Source: Alphaproteobacteria bacterium (GTDB lineage: Bacteria > Pseudomonadota > Alphaproteobacteria > ATCC43930 > CGMCC-115725). Taken from it: DNA of 64,000 nucleotides. Below the pieces are notes generated by a model that saw only the letters and a list, made by a program, of their open reading frames with translations, searched no databases and had not been told where the DNA came from. The stretch is from assembly GCA_028871055.1 (NCBI GenBank), contig JAGWON010000006.1, positions 62,001 to 126,000 on the forward strand, read 5' to 3'. Of the stretch, positions 1 to 60,112 are shown piece by piece. The translations under genes and the position numbers were made by a program. Each line of letters starts with the position of its first letter. Positions within the stretch are counted from its first letter, which is position 1.

Positions 1-1
1 C

Positions 2-793
2 GATGTCGGCGATGCCGGGCTGTTCCCGAAATGGGCGTTCTCCTGGCCGGTGAACCGCCGCATCCTCTACAACCGCGCGTCGTGCGACCTCACGGGCAAG
101 CCCTGGGATCCGACCCGCAAGATCATCGAATGGAACGGCACGATGTGGACCGGCTACGACGTGCCGGACATGCTGCCGACGGCGAAGCCGGAAACGGTGA
201 TGCCGTTCATTATGGTGCCCGAAGGCGTCGGCCGGCTGTGGGTCGCCGGTCTGATGGCCGACGGACCGTTCCCGTCGCATTACGAGCCCTTCGAATCGCC
301 GGTCGCTAATGTCGTCGCGCCGGCGGTGCACGGCAATCCGGCGGCGCGCGTGTTCGCGGGCGATCTCAAGGACATGGGCGACGCCAAGCAATACCCGATC
401 GTCGGCACGTCCTACCGCCTGACCGAGCATTTCCACTTCTGGACCAAGCACAACCGCGTCAACGCGGCACTGCAGCCCGAGTTCTTCGTCGAGCTCTCGG
501 AACAGCTCGCGAAGGCGAAAGGTATCGCCAACGGTTCGTGGGTCCGCGTGTGGTCGAAGCGGGGCTCGATCAAGGCGGTAGCCTGCGTGACCAAGCGGAT
601 CAAGCCCATGACCATCGACGGCAAGACCGTGCACATGGTCGGCGTGCCGTTGCATTGGGGCTTCATGGGCGTCGCGCGCAAGGGCTTCGGTCCCAATTCC
701 CTAACGCCTGTGGTGGGCGATGCGAACACGAACACGCCGGAATTCAAGGCGTTCCTGCTCGACATCGAGCCCAGCACGCCGCCCTCGGTCTAA
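2..793 (+). CDS. Formate dehydrogenase alpha (catalytic) subunit, C-terminal part
   Basis: This is the last 263 residues of a molybdopterin-guanine-dinucleotide formate dehydrogenase; the frame is open from the window edge. The visible part is the C-terminal dinucleotide-binding barrel of the family (segments such as YRLTEHFHFWTKHNR and ending near GDANTNTPEFKAFLLDIE). The active-site Sec/Cys, the Tat signal and the 4Fe-4S ligands lie upstream, outside the window. The FeS and cytochrome b subunit genes follow at once (15-bp gap), so it belongs to the periplasmic membrane-bound FdnGHI/FdoGHI type that passes formate electrons to quinone. selA, selB and selC immediately downstream suggest the active-site residue is selenocysteine; this is inference, since that codon cannot be seen. 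Confidence 0.93.
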   Translation, partial: DVGDAGLFPKWAFSWPVNRRILYNRASCDLTGKPWDPTRKIIEWNGTMWTGYDVPDMLPTAKPETVMPFIMVPEGVGRLWVAGLMADGPFPSHYEPFESPVANVVAPAVHGNPAARVFAGDLKDMGDAKQYPIVGTSYRLTEHFHFWTKHNRVNAALQPEFFVELSEQLAKAKGIANGSWVRVWSKRGSIKAVACVTKRIKPMTIDGKTVHMVGVPLHWGFMGVARKGFGPNSLTPVVGDANTNTPEFKAFLLDIEPSTPPSV

Positions 794-808
794 GGAAGGG
801 GACGGACA

Positions 809-1711
809 ATGGCATCCCGCGCGATGAACGTGGTCCGGACCTCGGCGACGTCGACGGCGAACGCCCAGGTGACCTTCCACGACGAAGTCGTGAAGCTGAT
901 CGACGTCTCGAAATGCATCGGCTGCAAGGCGTGTCAGACCGCCTGCCTCGAGTGGAACGATCAGGTGCTGGACATCGGCGAATTCACCGGTTCGTACCAG
1001 GTTCCATCCGATCTCACGCCCAGCATGTTCACGCTGATGCGGTTCAACGAATGGGAGAACCCGAAGACCGGCGAGCTCGAATGGCTCATCCGCAAGGACG
1101 GGTGCATGCATTGCGCCGATCCGGGCTGTCTTGCCGCCTGTCCGGCGCCGGGCGCGATCGTGCAGTACGACAACGGCATCGTCGATTTCGTCGCCGAGAA
1201 CTGTATCGGCTGCGGCTATTGCGTGAAGGGATGCCCGTTCAACATCCCGCGCATCTCGGCGGAACCCGCCAAGGCGCACAAATGCACGCTCTGTTCGGAC
1301 CGCGTGGCGGTCGGCGAAGGTCCCGCCTGCGCCAAGGCCTGCCCGACCGAAGCGATCGTGTTCGGCACCAAGCCGGACATGCTCAAACATGCCGCAGGGC
1401 GGCTGACCGACCTAAAGTCGCGCGGTTTCGACAATGCCGGCCTGTATAACCCGGATGGGGTCAGCGGAACCCACGTCATGTATGTCCTGCCGCACGCCGA
1501 TCAGCCGGAGCTCTATTCCGACCTGCCGCGCGACCCGCGGATCAGCCCGTGGGTCCGGACGTGGAAAGGGGCAACGAAGACCTATACCAGCCTTGCGGCG
1601 ATGGCCGTCTTTGTCGTCGGTGCTTTCGTCCATCACGTCGGTACCGGAGCCAACCGCGTCTCGAGCGAGGATGAAGAGAAGGGACGTAGGGTGATCGAGG
1701 GGAGGGACTAA
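809..1711 (+). CDS. fdxH: Formate dehydrogenase beta subunit, four [4Fe-4S] ferredoxin-like protein
   Basis: The 300-residue electron-transfer subunit links the catalytic subunit to the cytochrome b subunit. Four ferredoxin cysteine quartets are visible: C36/39/42/46, C99/102/107/111, C132/135/138/142 and C159/162/174/178. A single transmembrane helix near residues 258-276 is followed by a short charged tail, as in FdnH/FdoH, where it anchors the subunit to the membrane. Length is close to the E. coli homologues (about 294-300). It sits 15 bp after the alpha gene and 5 bp before the gamma gene, so one operon is clear. Confidence 0.95.
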   Translation: MASRAMNVVRTSATSTANAQVTFHDEVVKLIDVSKCIGCKACQTACLEWNDQVLDIGEFTGSYQVPSDLTPSMFTLMRFNEWENPKTGELEWLIRKDGCMHCADPGCLAACPAPGAIVQYDNGIVDFVAENCIGCGYCVKGCPFNIPRISAEPAKAHKCTLCSDRVAVGEGPACAKACPTEAIVFGTKPDMLKHAAGRLTDLKSRGFDNAGLYNPDGVSGTHVMYVLPHADQPELYSDLPRDPRISPWVRTWKGATKTYTSLAAMAVFVVGAFVHHVGTGANRVSSEDEEKGRRVIEGRD

Positions 1712-1716
1712 CCGCC

Positions 1717-2358
1717 ATGCCTGCCGATTCCTCGGGCGCAAGCACGGTCAAGCGGCACCCGCTCGATGTTCGCGTCGCACACTGGGTCGCCGCAGTGAGC
1801 TTTATCCTGCTCGGGCTGTCCGGCCTTGGTCTGTTTACGCCGGGACTTTTCTTCCTGACCGCGCTCTTTGGCGGCGGCGAAACGGCGCGGTGGCTCCATC
1901 CCTGGCTCGGACTCGCACTCGCACTCAGCTATCTCGTGCTGTTCATCCGGTTCATCGGTTCGTGTCTATGGGCTCAGGAGGACACGACCTGGATGTCACA
2001 TCTGAGCGACGCGATGTCGGGCCGCGAGGAAAAGCTGCCCGAGATCGGCAAGTTCAACCCGGGTCAGAAGCTCTACTTCTGGGGAATGGCTCTGCTGATC
2101 GTCGTGCTGCTGGTGACCGGCGTGGTCATCTGGCAAGCCTATTTCAGCACGCTCACGACGATCGAGACACAGCGGATGGCCGTCCTCATCCACTCGATCG
2201 CGGCGGTGCTGGCGATCCTCGGCTTCATCGTCCACATCCACATGGTCACATGGGAGCCGGGGACGCTCCGCGCGATGATCAACGGCACCGTGACCGGTGG
2301 GTGGGCCTGGAAGCATCACCGCAAGTGGTTGCGGCAGGTGACGGGAACGAAACACTAG
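1717..2358 (+). CDS. fdoI: Formate dehydrogenase gamma subunit, cytochrome b556
   Basis: This 213-residue membrane subunit carries the haem b groups that pass electrons to quinone. Four hydrophobic helices are visible, with histidines placed as in FdnI/FdoI: RHPLDVRVAHW at the start of helix 1, WLHPWLG before helix 2, and HSIAAVLAILGFIVHIHM in helix 4. The C-terminus (GWAWKHHRKWLRQ) matches the family's usual ending. It begins 5 bp after the beta subunit. Nothing odd is seen. Confidence 0.94.
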   Translation: MPADSSGASTVKRHPLDVRVAHWVAAVSFILLGLSGLGLFTPGLFFLTALFGGGETARWLHPWLGLALALSYLVLFIRFIGSCLWAQEDTTWMSHLSDAMSGREEKLPEIGKFNPGQKLYFWGMALLIVVLLVTGVVIWQAYFSTLTTIETQRMAVLIHSIAAVLAILGFIVHIHMVTWEPGTLRAMINGTVTGGWAWKHHRKWLRQVTGTKH

Positions 2359-2524
2359 GCGCACAGTCGCAGCATAGGGACCAGCCGCCATTGTTGGGTT
2401 GGGTTGACGACGAGCCCGCGCGCGCCACGCGGGCGCGGACCGCGCATTCGTTCGATCCTTGAGACTGTCGCAGTGCGGGAAGGGCGCTTGCTTTCGGCGA
2501 GCCGAGCGCGCTTCAATTCCCGAC

Positions 2525-3442
2525 ATGAGCCCGGAAATAACGCCGCAGATCGAGCCAGTTCCGATTGGCGAATTCGCCGAGCCGGACTTCGTGCGCCTGC
2601 CGGAGCCCGTCGCGCTTTTCCGCGCGCGGGCCGATCGCCTCCGCGCGCTGTCGGCAACGCACACGCTGGCCCCGTACCTCGTATTCCTCGCCGAGCTGGC
2701 GGCGATCCAGGAGCGCATCGCCGCGAGCCTGCCGTCGCCCAAGCCGCTGTCACCCGAGGAGCTGGAAGCTGCAGTTGCGGACACGCGCGCGCCGCTGGAT
2801 CGGTTGCTATTCGTGCCCGACGAATTTGCGCTCGCCGTGAGCGACAAGCTGCTCGCGGCACTGGCCGATGTCGCGATACCGGAAGCAGCCGTGCAGGCCG
2901 TGGGCCGCTTGAAGGCCGCCGATGCCGCAACGCGGCAGGCGGCGTTGCAGCACACGCTCCGCACGCTGCCGGTCGCCGAGGTGCTGGCCGAGCATGCATT
3001 GCTGAGTGCCGCCTTGCAGGTGGTCTTCGCCGCCGCCGCCGCCACCCTTCCGCCGCAACGGCTGCAGCCGGTCGCCGATGGCGTTTGCCCGGTCTGCGGC
3101 AGCCCGCCTCTGGCGTCGCTCTTGGCTGGCTGGCAGGGCGCGCGCGGCACGCGCTATTGCGCGTGCGGCCTCTGCGGAACCTTCTGGAACTACGTCCGCA
3201 TCAAATGTACGCTTTGCGGCTCGACCAAGGGCATTGCCTATCACGGGATCGAAGGCGATGCGGGGACGATCAAGGCCGAGAGCTGTGAATCCTGCCGCCG
3301 CTACGTCAAGATCCTGTATCAACAGAAAGACCCGGCGCTCGAACCGATGGCCGACGATATCGGCTCGCTCGGGCTCGATCTGCTCATGCGCGAAGCCGGC
3401 TTCGCACGCGGCGCGGTCAATCCGTTTCTGCTCGGCTACTGA
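2525..3442 (+). CDS. fdhE: FdhE, formate dehydrogenase accessory/maturation protein
   Basis: A 305-residue protein starting MSPEITPQIEP. The C-terminal half holds the rubredoxin-like paired CxxC motifs of FdhE: CPVCGS, CACGLCG, KCTLCGS and ESCESC. In E. coli FdhE is cytoplasmic and is needed for respiratory formate dehydrogenase activity; it binds iron and the catalytic subunit. The frame is open further upstream to about 2459, but the family N-terminus and the end of homology favour the ATG at 2525. It lies 166 bp after the gamma subunit gene and 15 bp before selA. Confidence 0.93.
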   Translation: MSPEITPQIEPVPIGEFAEPDFVRLPEPVALFRARADRLRALSATHTLAPYLVFLAELAAIQERIAASLPSPKPLSPEELEAAVADTRAPLDRLLFVPDEFALAVSDKLLAALADVAIPEAAVQAVGRLKAADAATRQAALQHTLRTLPVAEVLAEHALLSAALQVVFAAAAATLPPQRLQPVADGVCPVCGSPPLASLLAGWQGARGTRYCACGLCGTFWNYVRIKCTLCGSTKGIAYHGIEGDAGTIKAESCESCRRYVKILYQQKDPALEPMADDIGSLGLDLLMREAGFARGAVNPFLLGY

Positions 3443-3457
3443 TCCCGGAGCCTCGCG

Positions 3458-4876
3458 ATGAGCGCGCCGGCCAGCAACGCGGCTCGCCGCCGGCTCCCGG
3501 CAGTGGATGCTGTGCTGCGAAGCGAGGCAGCGGCGCCGGCAATCGCTGAATTTGGCCGGTCCGCGGTCGTGACGGCCGTGCGCCAGGCCCTCGCGCGACT
3601 GCGGGCGATGCCACCGGCGACCGCCGACGCCGACGCCGTGGCAGCGATTGCCCGCGGCGAGCTCGCGCAAGCCGCCGCTCCCACGCTCGGATCGGTTTTT
3701 AATCTCACCGGCACCGTCCTGCATACCAATCTCGGACGCGCGCCGATTGCCGAGACGGCCATCGATGCCGCCACGAGCGTCATGCGCGGAGCCGTCGCAC
3801 TGGAATTTGATCTGGATCGCGGACGGCGTGGCGAGCGCGACGATCACCTGCGCGGGCTGCTGTGCGAACTCACGGGTGCGGAAGACGCCACCGTCGTCAA
3901 CAACAATGCCGCTGCGGTTCTGTTGGCGCTCAATACCTTCGCGCTCAATCGCGAGGCGGTCGTCTCGCGCGGCGAGTTGATCGAGATCGGCGGCGCCTTC
4001 CGCATGCCCGAGATCATGGCGCGCGCGGGCGCCAAGCTGGTCGAGGTCGGCACCACCAATCGGACGCATCTGAAGGACTACGCGGCGGCGATCGGACCGG
4101 CGACCGGGCTCGTCCTGAAGGTGCATCCGTCGAACTACCGGATCGAGGGATTCACGACCGAGGTACCCACGGCAAAGCTCGCCGCGCTGGCGCACGATCG
4201 CCGTGTCCCATTGGCCTACGATCTCGGCTCGGGAACGCTGGTCGATCTGGCGCAATTTGGCCTCGCCCACGAAACCACCGTCAGCGAGGCGCTTGCGGCC
4301 GATGCCGATCTCGTCACGTTCTCCGGCGACAAGCTGTTGGGCGGCCCGCAGGCCGGGTTTATCGTCGGCCGCAAGGGCTTGCTCGCGGAGATCAACCGCA
4401 ATCCGCTGAAGCGCGCCTTGCGCGTCGACAAGCTCCGTCTCGCCGCGTTGGCGGCGACGCTGCGGCTTTACCGCGATCCCGACCGACTCAGGGAACGCCT
4501 GCCGACCTTGCGATTGCTGACGCGGCCGTTGGCGGACATCGAGGCGGCGGCGCGCCGGCTGGCACCCCATGTCGCCGCCGCGCTCGGCTCCGCCTTCGCG
4601 GTGGAGGTTGTCTCCTGCGGCAGCGAGATCGGTTCCGGCGCGCTTCCCGTCGAGACGCTGCCCAGCGCGGCAATTGCCGTCCGTCCGATGGCAAAGCGCC
4701 ATCAAGGCAAGGCGCTCGAAGACCTCGCGGCGGCGCTGCGGCGGCTGCCGATCCCGGCCATCGGCCGTGTCGAGCAGCAGGTCCTGCTGCTCGATTTGCG
4801 CTGCCTCGACGACGAACGGCGCTTCATCGACAATCTCTCCGCTCTCGATCTTGCGGGGCGACGCAGGCCGGCATGA
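3458..4876 (+). CDS. selA: L-seryl-tRNA(Sec) selenium transferase SelA
   Basis: This 472-residue PLP enzyme converts seryl-tRNA(Sec) to selenocysteinyl-tRNA(Sec) using selenophosphate. The N-terminal LPAVDAVLR segment is typical. The PLP-binding lysine is K292 in the motif [13 protein letters not shown]. Conserved segments [14 protein letters not shown] and [12 protein letters not shown] are present. Its stop overlaps the selB start (ATGA), indicating translational coupling. Together with selB and selC it shows that the cell makes selenoproteins; selD is not in the window. Confidence 0.97.
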
Positions 4877-6954
4877 TCATCGGAACCGCAGGCCATGTCG
4901 ACCACGGCAAGACGGCGCTCGTGCGCGCCCTGACGGGCGTCGATACCGATCGGCTCAAGGAAGAGAAAGCCCGCGGCATCTCGATCGATCTCGGTTTCGC
5001 CTATATGCCGGCACCGGACGGCAGCGTAATCGGATTCGTCGATGTGCCGGGCCATGAGCGCTTCATTCACAACATGCTCGCAGGCGCTTCCGGCATCGAT
5101 TGCGCGCTGCTGGTCGTGGCCGCCGATGACGGCATCATGCCGCAAACCGTCGAGCACCTATCGATCCTCGATCTTCTCGGCGTCGAACGCGGATTGGTGG
5201 TGCTGACCAAGGTCGATCTCACGCCGTCCGCCGAACGCGCGCAGACAGTCGCGGAAATCACGCGTTTGTTGGCTCGGACCTCGCTGGCCGGTGCCCCGAT
5301 TATCGAAGTTTCGGCGATCCGCGGCGACGGGCTCGAGGAATTGCGCGGACGGTTATTCGCCATCGCGCGCGCCGTCGCTCCACAAGCGATGGGCGGCCGG
5401 TTCCGTTTGGCGGTCGATCGCTCCTTTACCTTGGCTGGCGCTGGCACGATTGTCACCGGCACCGTGCTTTCGGGCATGGTGACGGTCGGAGACCGCGTCG
5501 CCGTCAGTCCGTCGGGCCTCGAGGCGCGCGTGCGCTCCATCCACGCGCAGAACCGACCGGCCGAGCGCGGGTGTTCGGGTGAACGCTGTGCGCTGAATCT
5601 CGTCGGCGACGGCGTCACGAAGGAAAGGATCGCGCGCGGCGATGTCGTTCTCGATCCAGGGCTTCACGCGCCGACGGATCGCATCGATGTGCGGCTGCGC
5701 GTGCTGCCGACGGAGCAGAAGCCGATCGGCCAATGGTTGCCCACGCGCTTTCATCACGGCGCCGCGGAGTGCGGAGCGCGCATCGTCTTGCTGAGCGACA
5801 CGCCACTCGCGCCGGGTACCGAAGGCTGGGTACAGCTCGTGCTCGACCGGCCAGTCGCCGCGGCTTCAGGCGATCGCTTTGTTTTGCGTGACACGTCGGC
5901 TCAGCGCACGATTGGCGGCGGGCGATTGGTCGATCTCCGCGCGCCGACACGGAAGCGTCGCACGCAAGAACGGCTGAGCAAGCTCGAAGCGATGGCGCAA
6001 GTGGATCCTGCGCACTCGCTCGCGGATCTCGTCGGCGGCCTCTCGGGCTTTGTCGACCTTTCCGGATTCGCTCGCGATCGGGCGCTGACCGCCGTGGAGG
6101 TCGAGACAATCGCGGACCGGCTAGGCTTAGTCCGCTTCGTGGCGCACGGCGCCGCCTTCGGGCTGTCGGCGGAAGGTTGGGCGGCTTTTCGACGCGCGCT
6201 CAATGCAAAGCTCGCGAGCTTCCATGCAGAGAATCCGGACCTTCAGGGCATCGCGCGCGAACGCTTGCGGCTCGCGTTCGAATTGCGGCTTCCGGCGCCG
6301 GTCTTCCTTGCGGCTCTCCAGACTCTCGCCGCGCTCGGCAAGATCGCGCTCGACGGCGCCTGGGTGCGGCTGGCTGAACATCAAGCTCGGCTTGCGGCGG
6401 AGCATGAGGCGCTGTGGGTAAGAATCCGGCCTCTGCTCGGCGGCAAAGAGCGATTCCGCCCGCCGCGCGTACGTGACGTCGCGGGGCTCCTGCGCATTCC
6501 CGAGGCGAACGTGCGGCGCGTTCTCAAGCTCGCCTCACGGCTCGGATTGGTCGACGAGATCGCACACGATCATTTCTTTCTGAGGCGGACCGTTGCCGAG
6601 ATCGTCGGCATCATGCAAGGCCTCGCGCCTGAAAGTCCGGATGGCCAGTTCACGGCGGCACAGCTGCGCGACCGGCTGGACAATGGGCGCAAGGTGGCGA
6701 TCCAGATTCTCGAGTTCTTCGACCGTCACGGCGTCACATTGCGCCGCGGCGATCTTCGCCGCATCAACCGTCACCGGCTCGACCTGTTTGGCCCGCCCGA
6801 ACGCGTCGCCGCGGGCGGGGCCGCGTTGCAGCACGACGGAAGAGAAACGTCCCCGGTGGGGCGGCCGGACTTCAAATCCGGAAAGGGCCGCGAGCCGGTC
6901 CTTGGTGGGTTCGACCCCCACTCTCTTCCGCCACCGCAAAGGAAAGCGCGATGA
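4873..6954 (+). CDS. selB: Selenocysteine-specific elongation factor SelB, frame running through selC
   Basis: The 693-codon frame starts [15 protein letters not shown]1 (GHVDHGKT), G3 (DVPGHE) and G4 (TKVD) GTPase motifs, EF-Tu-like barrels and a C-terminal winged-helix region are visible. It delivers Sec-tRNA to UGA codons marked by a SECIS hairpin. The family's normal C-terminus is reached near residue 644 ([15 protein letters not shown]). The frame then stays open for about 49 more codons, of which roughly residues 656-687 are the translation of the tRNA-Sec gene itself, before a TGA at 6952-6954. Whether this tail is made as protein cannot be told from sequence. The start overlaps the selA stop by 4 bp. 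Confidence 0.95.
6838..6933 (+). tRNA. selC: tRNA-Sec (anticodon TCA), overlapping the 3' end of selB
   Basis: A 96-nt tRNA-Sec including the encoded discriminator G and CCA (6930-6933). The 8-bp acceptor stem GGAAGAGA (6838-6845) pairs with TCTCTTCC (6922-6929); eight pairs is diagnostic of tRNA-Sec. The anticodon loop is CTTCAAA with TCA at 6872-6874 between CCGGA and TCCGG. A long variable arm follows, then the T-arm GTGGG-TTCGACC-CCCAC. The sequence closely tracks E. coli selC. It lies wholly within the open selB frame on the same strand. Confidence 0.97.
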
Positions 6955-7007: not shown

Positions 7008-8324
7008 TCAGCTGGCTGTGCCGGCGGCGGCCGGGGTTGACACTTTCTCCGCAAGGCCGTCGTCGAGCGCGATGCCGCGCGTCTCCGGCCCGTACCAGGC
7101 GGCCAGGACGGTCAGCAGAAGGAGGACGGACGCCAGCTTGAACTCGGAGGCGAGTCCGATCTTTGCTACGACCAGGCCAGCGGCCGTCGGCCCTGCCACC
7201 GAGACGAGCCGCGCGATCCCGATGGTCACGGACTGGCCGGTGCCGCGCAGCGTGGTCGGGAATGTCTCGGCCGTATGTGCCAGCATCGGCGGCACCGGCG
7301 CCAGGAGGGACGCGAACGCGATTCCGCCCAGCATGGGCGCGGCCGGCGAGACCGCATACGCGATCCACAGCCAGAGCGCGGTGACGCCAATGCCGGTGAA
7401 CGCGATGATCGTCCACCGGCGTCCGACGATGTCGCAGAGGTAACCGCTCAGGTTCTGGCAGAGGAAGCCGCCCAGGCCGAAGGCGCCCATGTACCAAGCG
7501 ATCTCGGCCTGCCCGACATGTGCCTCGGTGATGAGATAGCGCGGCACGAAGATCACCCAGCTCCACCAGAACGTCCAGTAGCCGATCCACAGCATCATGA
7601 TCCGCAACGTCGCGCCGCGATAAGCGGGTGCGAAGACCTCCCATACCGTGAACCGCCGGCGCTGCAACGTCCGATCGGCGAGCACCGCCTGAACCTTGTG
7701 AAACCGCGGCGATTCCTCGGCCGTCGCGCGGATCAGATAGACGATCGCGCCGAGGACCAGCATCGATGCGAACGCCCAGCGCCAGTTCGCGGCGAGCGCG
7801 ACGATGACGCTCGCGCAGAAGATGCCGAGCGAATAGACGGAGTTGGTAAGGGTCAAGGCGAACCCGCGCCACCGACGTGGCGCCGCCTCGGCGACGTAAG
7901 CCGCCCCGATGGGCAGCTCGGTACCGGTGCCGATCCCGGTCAAGAAGCGGGTTGCGGCGAACGACGCGCCGCCGGTCGCGGCGCCGGTCAATGCGCTGAA
8001 GATCGAATAGAGTCCGACCGAGATGCCCAGGCTGACACAGCGGCCGAGATAATCCGCCATCGTGCCGCCACTCAGCGTGCCGAGCGCATAGCCGAACAGG
8101 AAGATCGACGAAATGAAGCCAATGTCTTGTGCGGTTAGGTCGAATTCGTCGGTCACCGCCGGCAACGTTACCGTGTAGACGTTGATGACGATGGAATCGA
8201 GCAGCATGCCCAGCGCGGCCGCCAGGAAGATGAGGTACATCTGCCGCGTCGCGCCCGTCGGGTCGTGCGCCGTGGCGGCTTTGGAGAGCCCGGCGAGCGT
8301 TGGTTCTGCGTTTGGCGCTGTCAT
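7008..8324 (-). CDS. MFS transporter, substrate unknown
   Basis: A 438-residue major-facilitator protein with about 12 transmembrane helices. Family signatures are GTMADYLGRC in the loop between helices 2 and 3, RFLTGIGTGTELPIG in helix 4 (sugar/aromatic-acid-transporter type) and CDIVGRRW in the second half. It starts 9 bp after the UbiA-like gene, with a GGGGG Shine-Dalgarno stretch overlapping that gene's end, so it is the last gene of the minus-strand set. Its 3' end is convergent with selB/selC. The substrate cannot be read from sequence. Confidence 0.9.
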   Translation of the reverse strand: MTAPNAEPTLAGLSKAATAHDPTGATRQMYLIFLAAALGMLLDSIVINVYTVTLPAVTDEFDLTAQDIGFISSIFLFGYALGTLSGGTMADYLGRCVSLGISVGLYSIFSALTGAATGGASFAATRFLTGIGTGTELPIGAAYVAEAAPRRWRGFALTLTNSVYSLGIFCASVIVALAANWRWAFASMLVLGAIVYLIRATAEESPRFHKVQAVLADRTLQRRRFTVWEVFAPAYRGATLRIMMLWIGYWTFWWSWVIFVPRYLITEAHVGQAEIAWYMGAFGLGGFLCQNLSGYLCDIVGRRWTIIAFTGIGVTALWLWIAYAVSPAAPMLGGIAFASLLAPVPPMLAHTAETFPTTLRGTGQSVTIGIARLVSVAGPTAAGLVVAKIGLASEFKLASVLLLLTVLAAWYGPETRGIALDDGLAEKVSTPAAAGTAS

Positions 8325-8333
8325 CGCCCCCGC

Positions 8334-9266
8334 CTACCGGACGGCGACGCCGATGCCGAGGAGCGCGCCGTAATAGAACGACATCGCCGCGATCTTCGGG
8401 GCGAGCGGAAACAATTCGTCGAAACGGCGGTCGCTGCACACGACGCGCATCATCGCGACCGCTTGCGGCAGGATCAGCAGCGGCAACAACACCCAGGGGC
8501 TGAAGCCCAGGCCCAGCCAAAACCAGAACGGCGCGAGATAGCTGAAAGCCATGAGGGCGCCGATCTCGATGCGGCTCCAGGCCGGACCGAAGCGCACGGC
8601 GCCGGTGCGCCAGCCCTTGACGCGATCGGGCGCGCGGTCGCGCAGATCGTCGATCAGCATCATGTTGGTGACTAGCGCGCCGATCGGCAGGCCGAGGACG
8701 AAGGCGTCGAGCGGCAGCGCCCGCAGGACGAGCAGGCGATTGGCGTGCGACAGATAGAGCGGTGCGGCCTCGACGTAATAGGTGCCGACGACGGCAACCA
8801 CGCCGAACATCACGAAAAAGATCGGGTCGGCGAGGCCCCATCGCGCGTAGGCGAGCGGCGCCCCGGCGTAGCCCCAGCTCGAGACGACGCCGAGTATCCC
8901 GAACGCCACCACCAGATAGCCGGCGACATGCAGGAAGTAGGGACCGGTCAACATAGGCACGGCGAAGCAGAAGGCGATCGCGCCGCGCAGGACGGGAAGC
9001 GACAGCGCGCCCGTGTGCAGCGCCTCGACCAGGTCGGGATGCTCGCGGTTGTCGGGATGGCGCACCAGCAACTCGTAATTGTCGAGCATCACGCCGCCGA
9101 CATGCAGCAGCCAGCTGGCAAGGAAACCGATCAGCGCCGGCAGCAAGCGGAAGGCGCCGTTATGCGCGGCCAGTCCGACGCCGACCAGGACCGGCGCGAC
9201 GGCGACGGGCAGGGTATAGGTCGGATAGACCAGAAGATCGAGCCAAACCCTGCGCGCGGATACCAT
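8334..9266 (-). CDS. UbiA-superfamily prenyltransferase, MenA-like
   Basis: An integral membrane aromatic prenyltransferase of about 310 residues. The second Asp-rich motif LIDDLRDRAPD followed by GWRTGAVRFG resembles the NNLRD...AGKRTLAVRLG segment of MenA (1,4-dihydroxy-2-naphthoate prenyltransferase). The first motif is divergent (DNYELLVRHPDNREHPD). Eight to nine hydrophobic helices are visible. I chose the ATG at 9266 because MVSARRVWLDLLVYPTYTLP aligns with the family N-terminus. An in-frame ATG at 9338 would add 24 residues and overlap the upstream gene; neither has a clear ribosome site. The substrate could be a quinone precursor; this is inference. Confidence 0.72.
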   Translation of the reverse strand: MVSARRVWLDLLVYPTYTLPVAVAPVLVGVGLAAHNGAFRLLPALIGFLASWLLHVGGVMLDNYELLVRHPDNREHPDLVEALHTGALSLPVLRGAIAFCFAVPMLTGPYFLHVAGYLVVAFGILGVVSSWGYAGAPLAYARWGLADPIFFVMFGVVAVVGTYYVEAAPLYLSHANRLLVLRALPLDAFVLGLPIGALVTNMMLIDDLRDRAPDRVKGWRTGAVRFGPAWSRIEIGALMAFSYLAPFWFWLGLGFSPWVLLPLLILPQAVAMMRVVCSDRRFDELFPLAPKIAAMSFYYGALLGIGVAVR

Positions 9267-9321
9267 CGCCGTGCCGTGCGAAAGATACGAAGACGCGGCG
9301 GGTCGCGCCGCGCCGTGACGA

Positions 9322-9678
9322 TCAAGCCCGGAAAACATTCAACAGGAACAACAGACCCGAGAGCAACACGACCAGCGAGGCGACGCCTGCCGCTAGGTGC
9401 TGGCCGGCGGTGATCGCGAGATACTCGGCGAGCGGGAAAGCGATGGCGCCGATCACCGAGACCCAGAGATGGATGGTCGCCCAACTGTCGTTCTTGGCAA
9501 GACCAGCTCGGTAGACCAGCCCGAACACCATCAGCATCGCGCCGCCGAACAAAGCGAGATGGGCATGCACCGAGCCGATCTTGAAATCGTGCGTGGCGGC
9601 CATGTAGAGGCCGATGAACATTCCGGCGGCGAGCAACAGCGCGCCCCAGCGGATGAAATGCTTGTCGATGTTCTGCAT
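9322..9678 (-). CDS. Small four-helix membrane protein resembling a haem-copper oxidase segment
   Basis: 118 residues with four transmembrane helices. The segment VHAHLALFGGAMLMVFGLVY resembles the HxH-containing helix region of cbb3 oxidase/nitric oxide reductase catalytic subunits. Stand-alone proteins of this kind are often labelled cytochrome-c-oxidase-like, but it is far too short to be a working oxidase. It has its own FNR-type box 59-72 bp upstream, so it probably starts a second transcript within the gene set. Function unknown. Confidence 0.7.
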   Translation of the reverse strand: MQNIDKHFIRWGALLLAAGMFIGLYMAATHDFKIGSVHAHLALFGGAMLMVFGLVYRAGLAKNDSWATIHLWVSVIGAIAFPLAEYLAITAGQHLAAGVASLVVLLSGLLFLLNVFRA

Positions 9679-9736
9679 GGAACCCCGATTTGTGAACGCG
9701 ACCGTGAATTGTTCGCATCCGGTCGGTCATCGGTCG

Positions 9737-9750
9737 TTGATCTAGGTCAA
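9737..9750. promoter_or_regulatory. FNR/FixK-type binding site upstream of the 118-residue membrane protein gene
   Basis: TTGATCTAGGTCAA fits the FNR/FixK/NnrR consensus TTGAT-N4-(A/G)TCAA. Its centre (9743.5) is about 65 bp before the ATG at 9678. If it sits at -41.5, transcription would start near 9702. A weak -10-like AACAAT (minus strand, 9713-9708) is at the right distance. Regulation by low oxygen or nitrogen oxides is inferred. Confidence 0.75.
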
Positions 9751-9794
9751 GGAACGGCTTTTCGGGCGCCGTTGACGGGAAGCGCCGCGGCGCT

Positions 9795-10409
9795 TCAGGC
9801 GGCGCTGCGACGTGCCGCCATCGCCGGGCGCAGGAGCGGATAGAAATAGACGACGAGTTCCGCGACATAGGCGAAGGCGCCGAGACCGAGCCCGGCAACA
9901 ACCGCAATCAGGGCGATCAGCCCGCCATGCACCAGCGCGGCGGTCGCCGCGGCCCCCGCTCCGCACAGCGCCGCCCCGGCGTCGAGCATGCGGCTGAAGG
10001 CCGGCGGCGACGGCGCCGGTTGCGTGCCCGGCGTAGCGAGCGGCATCAAGCCGAGGCTCCCGGCGGCGGCCAGCGACAGCGGCACCAGGACAGGCGGACC
10101 GCCGAGCCAGACGGCCGGATCGGTCGCCAGCGCGGCGAGCGTCGGCGCATGGATCGCCAGATGTATCGCGGTGCCGATCACCCCGGCCACGACCGCGATC
10201 CCGCACGCGAGCGCGAAGAGCGCGGCGGTGACGCCGGTATCGAACGCGAGAACCAGAAAACCGAGCGTCAGCGCTGCAGCCACCGCGACGCGCGGGAAGA
10301 TGGCCACCGGATCGTGCGCCAGCGCGACCGCGGGATGATAGAGGTAGAGCTCGATGAACAATGGCCCGAACAGCATCAAGGCGACGAGGATGAAAAACCG
10401 GCGCAGCAT
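9795..10409 (-). CDS. Unknown multi-helix membrane protein
   Basis: 204 residues with about six hydrophobic helices and a proline-rich linker near residue 130 (TPGTQPAPSPP). I do not recognise the family. It starts 3 bp after the stop of the triheme cytochrome gene, so co-transcription and a linked role are likely, perhaps as a quinol-interacting or anchoring subunit. No haem-binding CxxCH is present; histidines near helix ends (LYLYHPAVALAH, AIHLAIHAP) could bind haem b, but this is speculation. Confidence 0.75.
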   Translation of the reverse strand: MLRRFFILVALMLFGPLFIELYLYHPAVALAHDPVAIFPRVAVAAALTLGFLVLAFDTGVTAALFALACGIAVVAGVIGTAIHLAIHAPTLAALATDPAVWLGGPPVLVPLSLAAAGSLGLMPLATPGTQPAPSPPAFSRMLDAGAALCGAGAAATAALVHGGLIALIAVVAGLGLGAFAYVAELVVYFYPLLRPAMAARRSAA

Positions 10410-10412
10410 GGC

Positions 10413-10934
10413 TCAGTGCGTTGGCGTCGCGGCCGGCTGGGCAAAGGCCGGTGTCGGTGCGCCGTCCACGCCGTTCAGCACCGTGTAACGCGTCTCGTCG
10501 TCGTAGAGCACCCATTGCCCATTCACCGTCGCGTGGCACGAGTTGCAGTTGCCGCTCATGTTGGCGAAGGCGGTCGAGTGAAGGTGGAGCGAATGAATGG
10601 ATTCCGCGAACGGCAGCGATGTCTTGGCGCCGTGGCAGATCAGGCAGTCCTCGACGCGCATCGGGATGCCATAGCTGGTGGCGAAGATGCCGTGCAGCTC
10701 GGGCTTTGGCCGCGCGACGACGAGGCGGTTGACGTCGGCGGCGAGATGGTCGCCGTGGCACGCGTTGCAGCCGCGATCCTGCGCGTGCGCCGTGTTCCAG
10801 TTGTAGTTGGTATAGGGAATGCCGAGCGCGAAGGCGCGCGCGTCGTTCCGCTGGTGCCAAGCATAAAACGTCGCGCCGAAACCGCCGACAATGACGACGA
10901 GCGCGGCCAATGCGAGGATCGCCGCGCGCGTCAT
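10413..10934 (-). CDS. Membrane-anchored triheme c-type cytochrome
   Basis: 173 residues. An uncleaved N-terminal helix (about residues 4-25) is followed by a periplasmic domain with three CxxCH haem sites: CNACH 56-60, CLICH 97-101 and CNSCH 130-134. Extra histidines (HGDH, HSLHLHS) could be distal ligands, giving bis-His low-spin haems as in small multihaem electron carriers. The ATG at 10934 overlaps the stop of the upstream membrane-protein gene by 4 bp. Its place in an operon headed by a periplasmic molybdoenzyme makes it the likely electron partner of that enzyme. Confidence 0.9.
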   Translation of the reverse strand: MTRAAILALAALVVIVGGFGATFYAWHQRNDARAFALGIPYTNYNWNTAHAQDRGCNACHGDHLAADVNRLVVARPKPELHGIFATSYGIPMRVEDCLICHGAKTSLPFAESIHSLHLHSTAFANMSGNCNSCHATVNGQWVLYDDETRYTVLNGVDGAPTPAFAQPAATPTH

Positions 10935-11554
10935 GTCGGCCGCCGTTCCAGCGCCGCGGCCGTCAGCAGCGCGAGCAGCGCCACCAAGAGCAACAGCGCG
11001 GCGAAGACAAGGCCGGCGGCGCTTTCTGCCAGGGTCGCCGGCGTCGCCGACAGGCCGATTCCGGCGACGATCAGCGCGAAGGCGACGCTGCAGATCATGC
11101 CGGTTGGATCGTTGGGCAAAAGCGGGACGCCATCGCCGGCGCCGAAGGCGCCAATGAAGCCGAGCACGGCGGCGAGCGTGATGGCGATCGGCCAATTGGG
11201 GCACGCCGGCCCGCCCCATACGGCGAGGGAAAAGACGCGATCCGGCTGGTCCAAGGTGACACCGCTCACGACGGCATGAGCGACGGCGCCGGCCAAGCCG
11301 ATGACCGCGGCGATCGCCATCGCCGCCTGGCAGGCGGCCGCGATCGCGCGCGACGGCTTCATCTGCACCGCCATGAGCGCCAGCAGCGACAGCGGCAGCC
11401 ATACGACCGGCAGCAGCGCCAGGCTCAATTCGCGTTGCGCCAGCGCCGGCCGATGTCCGAGATCGACCTCGAGCAGCACAATGACGAACAACAGCGTGGC
11501 GAGAACGAGGAGCGGCCGCCGCATGCGCCGGAGATCGTCGAAGATCGCCTCCAT
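10931..11554 (-). CDS. Unknown membrane protein next to the molybdoenzyme
   Basis: 207 residues with about six hydrophobic helices. A central periplasmic or loop segment, SLAVWGGPACPNWP, contains the only notable cysteine. The family is not recognised. It begins 1 bp after the stop of the molybdoenzyme gene and overlaps the cytochrome start (ATGA), so the three products are very likely made together. It may be the membrane anchor or quinone-reactive subunit of the complex; this is inferred from context only. Confidence 0.78.
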   Translation of the reverse strand: MEAIFDDLRRMRRPLLVLATLLFVIVLLEVDLGHRPALAQRELSLALLPVVWLPLSLLALMAVQMKPSRAIAAACQAAMAIAAVIGLAGAVAHAVVSGVTLDQPDRVFSLAVWGGPACPNWPIAITLAAVLGFIGAFGAGDGVPLLPNDPTGMICSVAFALIVAGIGLSATPATLAESAAGLVFAALLLLVALLALLTAAALERRPT

Positions 11555-11555
11555 G

Positions 11556-12479
11556 TCAGCGGACCTCCACGGCGATCACGCCGGGCGTGTCTTGCTTGCG
11601 GCCGTTGGCGCTCGTTGCCCGCACACGCAGCACGTAGAAACCGCGCCCGGGCGGACGCCATGTCACCTCCCATGTCACCCAGATATTCGGATCCGGCTGC
11701 GGCGGCAGCGGCATGGGCCGGTAAGTCGCGCCGTTGTCGGTGCTCAATTCGATCGAGCCGACCGGTTCGGGCCCCGTGAACGCATAGCCGGTGAGCGCGA
11801 CGCCCGCGAGCGAGCCGGCGGCTTCGGGCGGCGCTGGCGAAAGAAACCCGGCCATCGATGGGGCCGGGTGCTCGGGCGCCGGTTGGTCGATCAAGGTGAT
11901 GCGCGTGACCCATTTCGGGTTGTGATTGGCGCCCACGCCGGGGATGAAGAGCCGCGTATACGGGCTGCCGTGACGCAGCGGCACCGGCTGCGATCCGAGG
12001 GTTGCCACCAGCATCGCGCCCGGCCGCTGCAACTCGCTGAGCGGCAGCGGGAAGATCGGATGGCCGTCGCTGGTCTCGACGCGCGCCGATCGCGCTTCCG
12101 GCTTGACGCCCGTCTTCTCGAACAGCGCCGCGAGCGGCACGCCCTTGAACGGCGTGGTGAAGATGAGGGGGCCGCCGGCCGTATTGACGAAGCACTCCAT
12201 CGTCCACAGGTGCTCGACATGCGGCAAGGCGGCAAGATCGGCCAGGCTATACCGTGCCGCCGCGCCGACGAGGCCGTCGATTTGAATGCCGGCGGAGAGA
12301 CGCGCCGGGTCGCGCATCTGCGAATAGACGAAGAATCGGCCATTGGGCGTGATCAGCGGTCCGCTGGGCGTCGCGCGAACCGCCAACGATCCAGCATCGG
12401 CGTCAGCCGAGCGCATGCCGGCCAACATGCCGCCGAGGATCACTGAGGATGCCGATGCGAGGAATGTCCGACGATCCAT
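11556..12479 (-). CDS. Periplasmic molybdopterin oxidoreductase, sulfite-oxidase family
   Basis: 307 residues. The N-terminus MDRRTFLAS is a Tat-type signal, so the folded cofactor-containing protein is exported. The oxidoreductase domain (about 40-200) has C96 in WTMECFVNTAGG, at the place of the Mo-ligating cysteine, followed by FKGVPLAALFE and PGVGANHNPKWVTRI, both typical of the family. The C-terminal 100 residues (GYAFTGPEPVGSIELSTDNG onward) match the Mo-co dimerisation domain of sulfite oxidase/SoxC. It lacks the CAGNRR form of sulfite oxidases, so sulfite is not assured as substrate. It heads the operon, 87 bp downstream of a perfect FNR-type box. Confidence 0.88.
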   Translation of the reverse strand: MDRRTFLASASSVILGGMLAGMRSADADAGSLAVRATPSGPLITPNGRFFVYSQMRDPARLSAGIQIDGLVGAAARYSLADLAALPHVEHLWTMECFVNTAGGPLIFTTPFKGVPLAALFEKTGVKPEARSARVETSDGHPIFPLPLSELQRPGAMLVATLGSQPVPLRHGSPYTRLFIPGVGANHNPKWVTRITLIDQPAPEHPAPSMAGFLSPAPPEAAGSLAGVALTGYAFTGPEPVGSIELSTDNGATYRPMPLPPQPDPNIWVTWEVTWRPPGRGFYVLRVRATSANGRKQDTPGVIAVEVR

Positions 12480-12565
12480 GCGCGCATCCTGACTGATCCA
12501 ACCCTCCGCGGCTTATAGCCGGTGGGGTCAAGCAGTCAGGCTCATCGGTATCTGAGTAACCGTCA

Positions 12566-12579
12566 TTGATTCAGATCAA
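12566..12579. promoter_or_regulatory. Perfect FNR/FixK-type binding site upstream of the molybdoenzyme operon
   Basis: TTGATTCAGATCAA matches the FNR/FixK consensus TTGAT-N4-ATCAA at every fixed position. Its near edge is 87 bp from the start codon of the molybdoenzyme gene on the minus strand. A TATAAG hexamer (minus strand, 12517-12512) lies between site and gene. It is the second such site in the gene set, after 9737-9750. Confidence 0.8.
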
Positions 12580-12919: not shown

Positions 12920-13798
12920 ATGCGGGAATTCCTCAATACTGGCGAGGTCGCGGAGTACCTGCGCCTCAAGGAGCGCACGATCTATGAGTTGGTGCGGACG
13001 AAGCAGATTCCGTGCTCGCGCGTCACCGGCAAGTTGCTGTTCCCACGCCGCCTGATCGACCTGTGGGTGACGCGCCAGACCGAGTTCGCGGGCCCCGATC
13101 TGCATCCGGCACCGCCGGTCGCCGCCGGCAGCCACGATCCGTTGCTGGAATGGGCGTTGCGCGAGTCGGGCTCCGAGCTCGCGCTCTTGGCGGGCGGCAG
13201 CGAAGATGGGCTCAAGCGGCTGGTTGCCAATAAGGCGGTGATTGCTGGCATCCATCTACTCGATCCCGCCAGCGGCGAGTACAACCGTCCGGCGATCCAG
13301 GCCTTGGGCGGGTTGGCCGATGTGGTGCTGGTCGAATGGGCCAAGCGCGAGCAGGGCCTAGTGGTGGCGCGCGGCAACCCACGCGGTATCGAATCGCCGG
13401 CCGATCTCGGGCGGAAGGGCACGCGGGTCCTGCGTCGCCAGGAAGGCGCCGGCGCGCAGGTGCTGCTGCGCCACTTGCTTGCCGAGGCAAAGCTCCGGCT
13501 CGAGGACCTGTCCGGGCCGCCGCAACCCGCGCTGACCGAAACCGACATCGCCTCCGCCATTCTCGACGGCAAGGCGGATGCCGGCATCGCGGTGCGCGCC
13601 GTCGCCGAACGCCACAAGCTCGGCTTCGTGCCGCTGCGCTGGGAGCGGTTCGATCTGGCGATGCGGCGGCGCGATTATTTCGAGCCGCCGGCGCAGAAGC
13701 TGCTCGGCTTCGCGCGCACGCCCAGATTCGCCGAGAAGGCGCAGACGCTTGGCGGCTACGACTTGAGCGCGGCCGGCACCGTCAACTACAACGCCTGA
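12920..13798 (+). CDS. One-component regulator: excisionase/MerR-type HTH plus periplasmic-binding-like domain
   Basis: 292 residues. The first 55 (FLNTGEVAEYLRLKERTIYELVRTKQIP, then KLLFPRRLIDLWV) form an excisionase/MerR-type winged helix. Residues about 70-290 form a solute-binding-protein-like sensor (NPRGIESPADLGRKG; VLRRQEGAGAQVLLRHLL; IASAILDGKADAGIAVRAVAE), the PBP_like fold also found attached to molybdopterin-biosynthesis proteins. Such proteins are thought to sense a small ligand, possibly molybdate, tungstate or a cofactor precursor. Its location between the molybdoenzyme operon and Mo/W formate dehydrogenase genes fits that, but the ligand is inferred. It is convergent with the lipoprotein genes, with 3 bp between stops. 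Confidence 0.83.
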   Translation: MREFLNTGEVAEYLRLKERTIYELVRTKQIPCSRVTGKLLFPRRLIDLWVTRQTEFAGPDLHPAPPVAAGSHDPLLEWALRESGSELALLAGGSEDGLKRLVANKAVIAGIHLLDPASGEYNRPAIQALGGLADVVLVEWAKREQGLVVARGNPRGIESPADLGRKGTRVLRRQEGAGAQVLLRHLLAEAKLRLEDLSGPPQPALTETDIASAILDGKADAGIAVRAVAERHKLGFVPLRWERFDLAMRRRDYFEPPAQKLLGFARTPRFAEKAQTLGGYDLSAAGTVNYNA

Positions 13799-59488: not shown

Positions 59489-59731
59489 ATGGCCGATTTC
59501 GTGAGTCTCTATGATGCCAAGACGGGCCTCTCCAAGCTCGTCGAGCGCGCCGCGGCGGGCGAGGAGATTGTCATCACCAAGAACGGCGTGCCGATGGCGA
59601 AGCTGGTTCCGGCGCCGCGCCGGGGCAAGCCACGCCGTCCCGCACATGCGCTCGGCCTGAAGCGTATCGCCAAGAATTTCGACGAACCGTTGCCCGCCAG
59701 TATCCAGACGGCCTTCGAGGGCCGGGGTTGA
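59489..59731 (+). CDS. Phd/YefM-family antitoxin
   Basis: 80 residues. MADFVSLYDAKTGLSKLVERAAAGEEIVITKNGVPMAKLVPA is the Phd fold that binds DNA; the C-terminal tail (RPAHALGLKRIAKNFDEPLP) would wrap the toxin. It ends exactly where the PIN-toxin GTG begins, so the pair is coupled. AAGGAG is 7-8 bp before the ATG. Confidence 0.92.
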   Translation: MADFVSLYDAKTGLSKLVERAAAGEEIVITKNGVPMAKLVPAPRRGKPRRPAHALGLKRIAKNFDEPLPASIQTAFEGRG

Positions 59732-60112
59732 GTGGATTTCCTCCTCGATACGCACGTCTTCCTATGGTGGGACGCAGCGACGGGTGACCTCGGCCGCGAG
59801 GCCGCCGCGGCCATTGCCGATCCGGACAATAACATTTTCGTCAGCGCCGCGTCGGTTTGGGAAATTGCCATCAAGCAAAAAGCGCGGCGGCTGTCCTTTG
59901 CCGGGTCTCCGACCGAGGCCATCGGCCGCAACGGGTTTTTGCCGCTGCCGGTCCTGCCGCTTCACGCGGAGCGCGCAGCCGCGCTTCCGCCGCTCCACCA
60001 GGATCCGTTCGATCGCATGCTGGTGGCGCAGGCGCAAGCCGCATCGCTGACCCTGATCACGGCCGACGAGCGGATTACGGCCTATGCCGTGCCGCGGCTC
60101 TGGGCGCGATGA
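59732..60112 (+). CDS. VapC-family PIN-domain toxin
   Basis: 126 residues from a GTG directly after the antitoxin stop. Acidic PIN residues are D6 (FLLDTHVFLW), E44 (SVWEIAIK), D94 (DPFDRML) and D112 (TADERI). It is the PIN_Sll0205-like type usually paired with Phd antitoxins; such toxins cut RNA. All catalytic residues are present. Confidence 0.92.
   Translation: MDFLLDTHVFLWWDAATGDLGREAAAAIADPDNNIFVSAASVWEIAIKQKARRLSFAGSPTEAIGRNGFLPLPVLPLHAERAAALPPLHQDPFDRMLVAQAQAASLTLITADERITAYAVPRLWAR

Follow-up and report, generated by a model that had tools for sequence, protein, structure and literature searches.

To our knowledge, few bacterial routes leading from molybdenum enzymes of the periplasm into the quinone pool are known. 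The locus described here, in a 64,000-nt stretch of DNA (the window) on contig 29 of an alphaproteobacterial genome (3.07 Mb, 33 contigs, 99% complete), raises the question of whether it encodes a further such route and, if so, which genes belong to it and in which direction the electrons would run. The initial annotation had reported seven packed minus-strand genes, and all seven open reading frames are indeed present. Named P1 to P7 in transcription order, they are bounded by a selenocysteine tRNA (6838-6933) and a divergent regulator (12920-13798, plus strand):

12566..12579: FNR-type box TTGATCTGAATCAA (minus-strand reading), exact pattern match, ahead of the core operon P1-P4
11556..12479, minus strand: P1, Tat-exported sulfite-oxidase-fold molybdoenzyme, 307 aa (PF00174, Oxidored_molyb, E 5e-21)
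10931..11554, minus strand: P2, six-helix membrane protein, P4 paralogue, no Pfam family
10413..10934, minus strand: P3, membrane-anchored triheme c-type cytochrome, 173 aa (Pfam cytochrome c3-type, three CxxCH)
9795..10409, minus strand: P4, six-helix membrane protein, P2 paralogue, no Pfam family
9737..9750: FNR-type box TTGACCTAGATCAA (minus-strand reading), exact pattern match, ahead of the second unit P5-P7
9322..9678, minus strand: P5, small four-helix protein of the second unit (COX1-like Pfam matches, sub-threshold)
8334..9338 (start may be 9266), minus strand: P6, distant UbiA/MenA-like prenyltransferase of the second unit (Pfam UbiA, E 3e-15)
7008..8324, minus strand: P7, MFS carrier of the second unit (Pfam MFS)

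The first four genes are separated by a 1-nt gap (P1-P2), a 4-nt overlap (P2-P3) and a 3-nt gap (P3-P4), and the P4-P5 gap measures 116 nt and holds its own FNR-type box. The family nearest to P7 is that of the aromatic-acid/H+ symporters, with a score far under that family's cut-off. At window positions 1-6954, formate-dehydrogenase genes come first, then fdhE-, selA- and selB-like genes, and then the selenocysteine tRNA. The divergent regulator combines a helix-turn-helix with a MoeA-C-terminal-like PBP domain, has its intergenic region and FNR box in common with the core operon, and is possibly a molybdate or cofactor sensor. Elsewhere in the window, a small Phd-like antitoxin and a PIN-domain-like toxin (59489-60112, plus strand) were called as a pair by eye.

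To define which of the seven genes belong together, we turned to their distribution. Scanning 84,980 species genomes with a profile returned three close P1 orthologues (67-68% identity, the next matches being at 35% or lower), one in a Rhodopseudomonas MAG (L040) and one each in the Eremiobacterota bog MAGs L041 and L042. The order and strand of P1-P2-P3-P4 are identical in all three, so that the membrane proteins P2 and P4 do stay with the cytochrome and the molybdoenzyme, a co-occurrence that the initial annotation had put forward as a check. With the window genome this makes four genomes in two phyla, a lower bound since the scan relied on two short patterns only, and only about three independent lineages with P1-P4 are known. 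All four core genes are under constraint at the protein level, as third codon positions vary most in comparison with L040 and L042; identity across genomes is 63-73% for P1 and P3 and 47-56% for P2 and P4. P5, P6 and P7, however, were found near none of the orthologous operons in L040, L041 and L042, and they have a promoter region and FNR box of their own. The idea of one seven-gene pathway is therefore not supported: judged by gene order, the conserved unit is the four-gene core P1-P4, and P5-P7 are a separate, FNR-boxed neighbour unit.

The core is sparsely distributed. No P1 relatives at E <= 1e-25 were found in 384 other alphaproteobacterial genomes, and none of P3 in 98 related genomes, in 298 other Pseudomonadota genomes or, by profile, in 397. 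Exact-peptide scans with P1 by itself came back empty from both the genome and the viral collections, as did one with P3 from the viral collection; the P1 search that succeeded used a two-row alignment including a Thermus relative. Two genomes from another genus of the same family have the formate-dehydrogenase and selA-selB-selC genes and lack the module; P1-P4 were therefore probably acquired laterally. In L041, resolvase and transposase-like genes lie directly downstream of the module (7991-10356), consistent with mobility or with loss of an adjacent sorAB.

FNR-type sites had been claimed ahead of both halves of the locus, and both boxes are exact matches to TTGAY-N4-RTCAA, the pattern we required without mismatch. 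Their centres lie 93.5 nt (12566-12579) and 65.5 nt (9737-9750) ahead of the respective downstream start codons. Genome-wide there are 50 such sites and none of the reversed control pattern; at this density 0.09 sites would be expected per 5.6 kb, and the probability of two or more is about 0.004. Genes next to boxes in this genome include those for a cytochrome bd-type oxidase, a HemN-like protein, DsrO/NrfD-type electron-transfer proteins and small stress proteins, several of them named by eye. Given these neighbours and the count of 50 against 0, the boxes probably belong to a real low-oxygen-type regulon, and the exact upstream boxes assign both the core operon and the second unit to the FNR/DNR regulon as predicted sites with putative binding. 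No exact box was found just upstream of the orthologous operons in L040, L041 and L042 (0 of 3). Going by these sites, FNR control of the core is particular to the window genome and is not conserved. We propose that the core operon here joined an oxygen/nitrogen-oxide-responsive regulon and is under other control elsewhere. At two further loci of this genome (L016, G000:C5:90000-103000, and L034, G000:C33:60000-66000), FNR boxes stand beside DsrO/TtrB-like Fe-S proteins, an NrfD-like subunit and multihaem cytochromes, which suggests further undescribed electron-transfer complexes. An AprA candidate near another FNR box was rejected, as it scored closer to fumarate-reductase-like flavoproteins, and was kept out of the evidence.

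What does P1 act on? It has an arginine pair at residues 3-4 (Tat signal) and no haem of its own. Its Oxidored_molyb domain with a candidate Mo-ligating cysteine, Cys96, invariant among the orthologues, places it in the sulfite-oxidase fold (PF00174). The motif ECFVNTAGG, previously singled out as differing from sulfite oxidase, is present at residues 95-103 and SorA-type residues are indeed absent, but it is not unique, being the local form of a motif, CxxNxxGG, that marks a large uncharacterised clade from Chloroflexi, Acidobacteria, Binatota, Thermus, haloarchaea and Actinobacteria. The SorA-type stretches FFVRYHL and CSGNSR correspond to FFVYSQM and CFVNTA in P1. We take the sulfite-binding residues of SorA to be Arg55, His57 and Arg109 (SorA numbering); since the Arg and His around this site are missing from P1, sulfite is an unlikely substrate. 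Within the clade, 42 of 89 sequences carry an N-terminal extension of at least 170 aa, mostly membrane-spanning, on the Mo domain, an arrangement resembling that predicted for the Mo-haem b protein Sco3746 (PMC5449189). Across 20 loci encoding soluble members, no common redox neighbour was found, bar a single five-CxxCH cytochrome. This one (L049, a Chloroflexi MAG) is a 198-aa one-helix protein encoded after the Mo enzyme, and the locus is another instance of a CxxNxxGG-clade enzyme paired with a membrane multihaem cytochrome.

The initial annotation had called the two six-helix proteins unknown, in line with Pfam, which gave no match, including the MsrQ-type Ferric_reduct family, for P2, P4 or their orthologues. 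Yet the two profiles match each other (hhalign probability 94.7%, E 5.8e-8, 126 columns aligned) and the P2 profile picks up a P4 orthologue (hmmsearch E 3e-10), which makes P2 and P4 divergent paralogues. The only two histidines of P2, H34 and H93, are both invariant, as are E29 and W113-x-G-P; in P4, E20, H25, H83 and H87 are invariant, three of its five histidines being kept. In both proteins, helix 1 ends in a Glu-x4-His and helix 3 in a His. With the positively charged N-termini placed inside, prediction puts this invariant Glu/His/His set close to the periplasmic side, where P3 and P1 are; it is suggestive of a fair candidate site for haem b, quinol or metal. P3 itself has one membrane anchor, three CxxCH and six further invariant histidines, which are candidate distal haem ligands. 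AlphaFold modelled P2 and P4 with low confidence (mean pLDDT 62 and 49), and a Foldseek search with the P4 model was empty at E <= 0.001. PDB sequence searches with the P2, P3 and P4 profiles gave nothing credible; lectin matches of the P4 profile were short and local and were discarded. Nor was homology found between the P2 or P4 profiles and the transmembrane domains that are fused to Mo domains elsewhere in the CxxNxxGG clade (hhalign probability below 1%).

The surroundings of the operon point to sulfur. In L042, sorA and sorB lie directly downstream of P1-P4, SorB scoring above its cut-off and SorA at 567 bits against a cut-off of 600. Upstream of the same operon is a CsoR-family repressor with two cysteines 29 residues apart and a serine at the metal-binding histidine position, four residues before the second cysteine, an arrangement that we take to be the pattern of the persulfide sensor CstR. 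TTHA1953, a repressor of Thermus sox genes grouped with CstR, has its cysteines at C39 and C68 (PMC10318464). The same repressor is encoded 3.7 kb upstream of the module in L041, where sorAB is on another contig. In L040, the region 1 to 4 kb upstream contains two Sulf_transp genes and a rhodanese gene, with FNR boxes; 11 nt separate P1 from the end of a DUF6969 gene. SorA was found in all four module genomes and, among the 189 other alphaproteobacteria sampled, in 5 at E <= 1e-90, a limit picked after the L040 value of 1.2e-95 was known. Two of the four genomes are also closely related to the query; this co-occurrence is supportive and not a test.

Taken together, these observations lead us to propose, tentatively and at somewhat below an even chance, that P1-P4 form a periplasm-facing redox complex working in the reductive direction. 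P2 and P4 would pair as a heterodimer that holds a site for quinol (or haem b) on its periplasmic side, electrons would pass from quinol through P2/P4 and the three P3 haems to the Mo site of P1, and P1 would act on a small sulfur compound, either an S-oxide or a sulfur oxyanion other than sulfite. Oxidising Mo centres of the sulfite-oxidase type usually feed a high-potential cytochrome c, whereas reducing ones need membrane partners, as in MsrPQ. For this reason, and because of the FNR-type box ahead of the operon here, we modestly favour the flow from quinol to substrate. However, FNR control is not conserved and therefore says little about electron direction, and the adjacent sorAB, an oxidising system, would also fit the opposite direction. 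In that case, P1 would be a periplasmic sulfur-compound dehydrogenase working with SorAB, and its electrons would go via P3 either into the quinone pool or to a soluble cytochrome c. The position of sorAB in L042, the presence of SorA in all four genomes and the nearby CstR-pattern repressor and sulfur-transport genes all speak for an oxidising complex, but P1 lacks the SorA sulfite-site residues, the control box of the window genome is of an anaerobic type, and the oxidising relatives of P1, SorAB and SoxCD, rely on soluble cytochromes without a membrane pair. We regard it as possible, if doubtful.

Other readings fare less well. P1 might mend oxidised residues, such as methionine sulfoxide, in envelope proteins, with P2/P4 replacing MsrQ as the quinol-oxidising partners; the shared fold family, Tat export, membrane partners and a conserved core without a transporter would all agree with such repair. 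Yet P1 reaches 15.5 bits on the MsrP model, where the cut-off is 207, neither P2 nor P4 has a Ferric_reduct match, MsrPQ works without a multihaem cytochrome, and the patchy distribution and sulfur-metabolic neighbours would be unusual for housekeeping repair, which makes this role unlikely. It is slightly more unlikely that P2 and P4 carry no electrons themselves and instead anchor P1 and P3 structurally or help to assemble them; P1 and P3 alone would then exchange electrons with soluble partners. Such a role would agree with their want of a recognisable cofactor family and with a sequence identity below that of P1 and P3, but it is precisely the handful of Glu and His residues close to helix ends that both paralogues have kept, and a conserved pair flanking a cytochrome gene is rare for assembly factors. 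Least probable of all is that the prenyltransferase, the four-helix protein and the MFS carrier serve the redox complex: against the close spacing of the genes and a pair of FNR-type boxes within a single stretch stand the absence of P5-P7 near every orthologous operon and the separately boxed P4-P5 gap.

If the proposed complex proves true, it would represent a new way of wiring a periplasmic Mo enzyme to quinones, and the sulfite-oxidase fold would probably gain a new reaction. A bolder suggestion, which we offer with clear reservation, is that P2 and P4 are the founders of a new quinone-linked class of membrane electron-transfer proteins, forming a paralogous heterodimer with His/Glu sites on the periplasmic side; this pair would bridge the triheme cytochrome and a sulfite-oxidase-fold enzyme whose substrate is new. 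The four-gene set is compact, occurs in phyla unrelated to each other and has sulfur genes for neighbours, and it is small enough to transfer to a laboratory host.

No description of the four-gene set was found in the open-access literature searched. The initial annotation had seen no match to the SorAB, SoxCD, MsrPQ or Nap layouts, a view borne out here, as P1-P4 fall outside the membership definitions of SorAB, SoxCD, MsrPQ and NapC/NrfH. SorAB likewise pairs a Tat-exported sulfite-oxidase-fold Mo enzyme with a c-type cytochrome, but P1 scores 49.9 bits against the SorA cut-off of 600 and lacks the sulfite-site residues, and whereas SorB is a monohaem protein, P3 has three CxxCH, belongs to another family and is accompanied by two membrane proteins. 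SoxCD has the Mo fold in common and acts on sulfur, as proposed for P1; however, P1 reaches 63 bits on the SoxC model (cut-off 420), and P1-P4 have neither a SoxD-like dihaem cytochrome nor SoxYZ nearby. MsrPQ (YedYZ) also joins a periplasmic Mo enzyme to a membrane partner and is quinol-linked, as P1-P4 would be, but P1-P4 show no MsrP- or MsrQ-family match and include an extra triheme cytochrome and two membrane proteins. Like NapC, NrfH and TorC, P3 is a single-helix-anchored multihaem cytochrome for a periplasmic enzyme, yet it is c3-like, has three haems where that family is defined by four or more, and has no NapC/NirT (Cytochrom_NNT) Pfam match. Sco3746 is a predicted Mo-haem b protein of the dual Sec/Tat type (PMC5449189), and its Mo domain, apparently of the same CxxNxxGG clade, likewise has a membrane electron-transfer partner. 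In the Sco3746 type, however, the transmembrane domain is fused at the N-terminus, whereas P1 begins at its Tat signal, and the membrane part of P1-P4 is separate, doubled, non-homologous and linked by a triheme cytochrome. On these comparisons of sequence and layout, P1-P4 belong to none of the SorAB, SoxCD, MsrPQ, NapC/NrfH or Sco3746 types.
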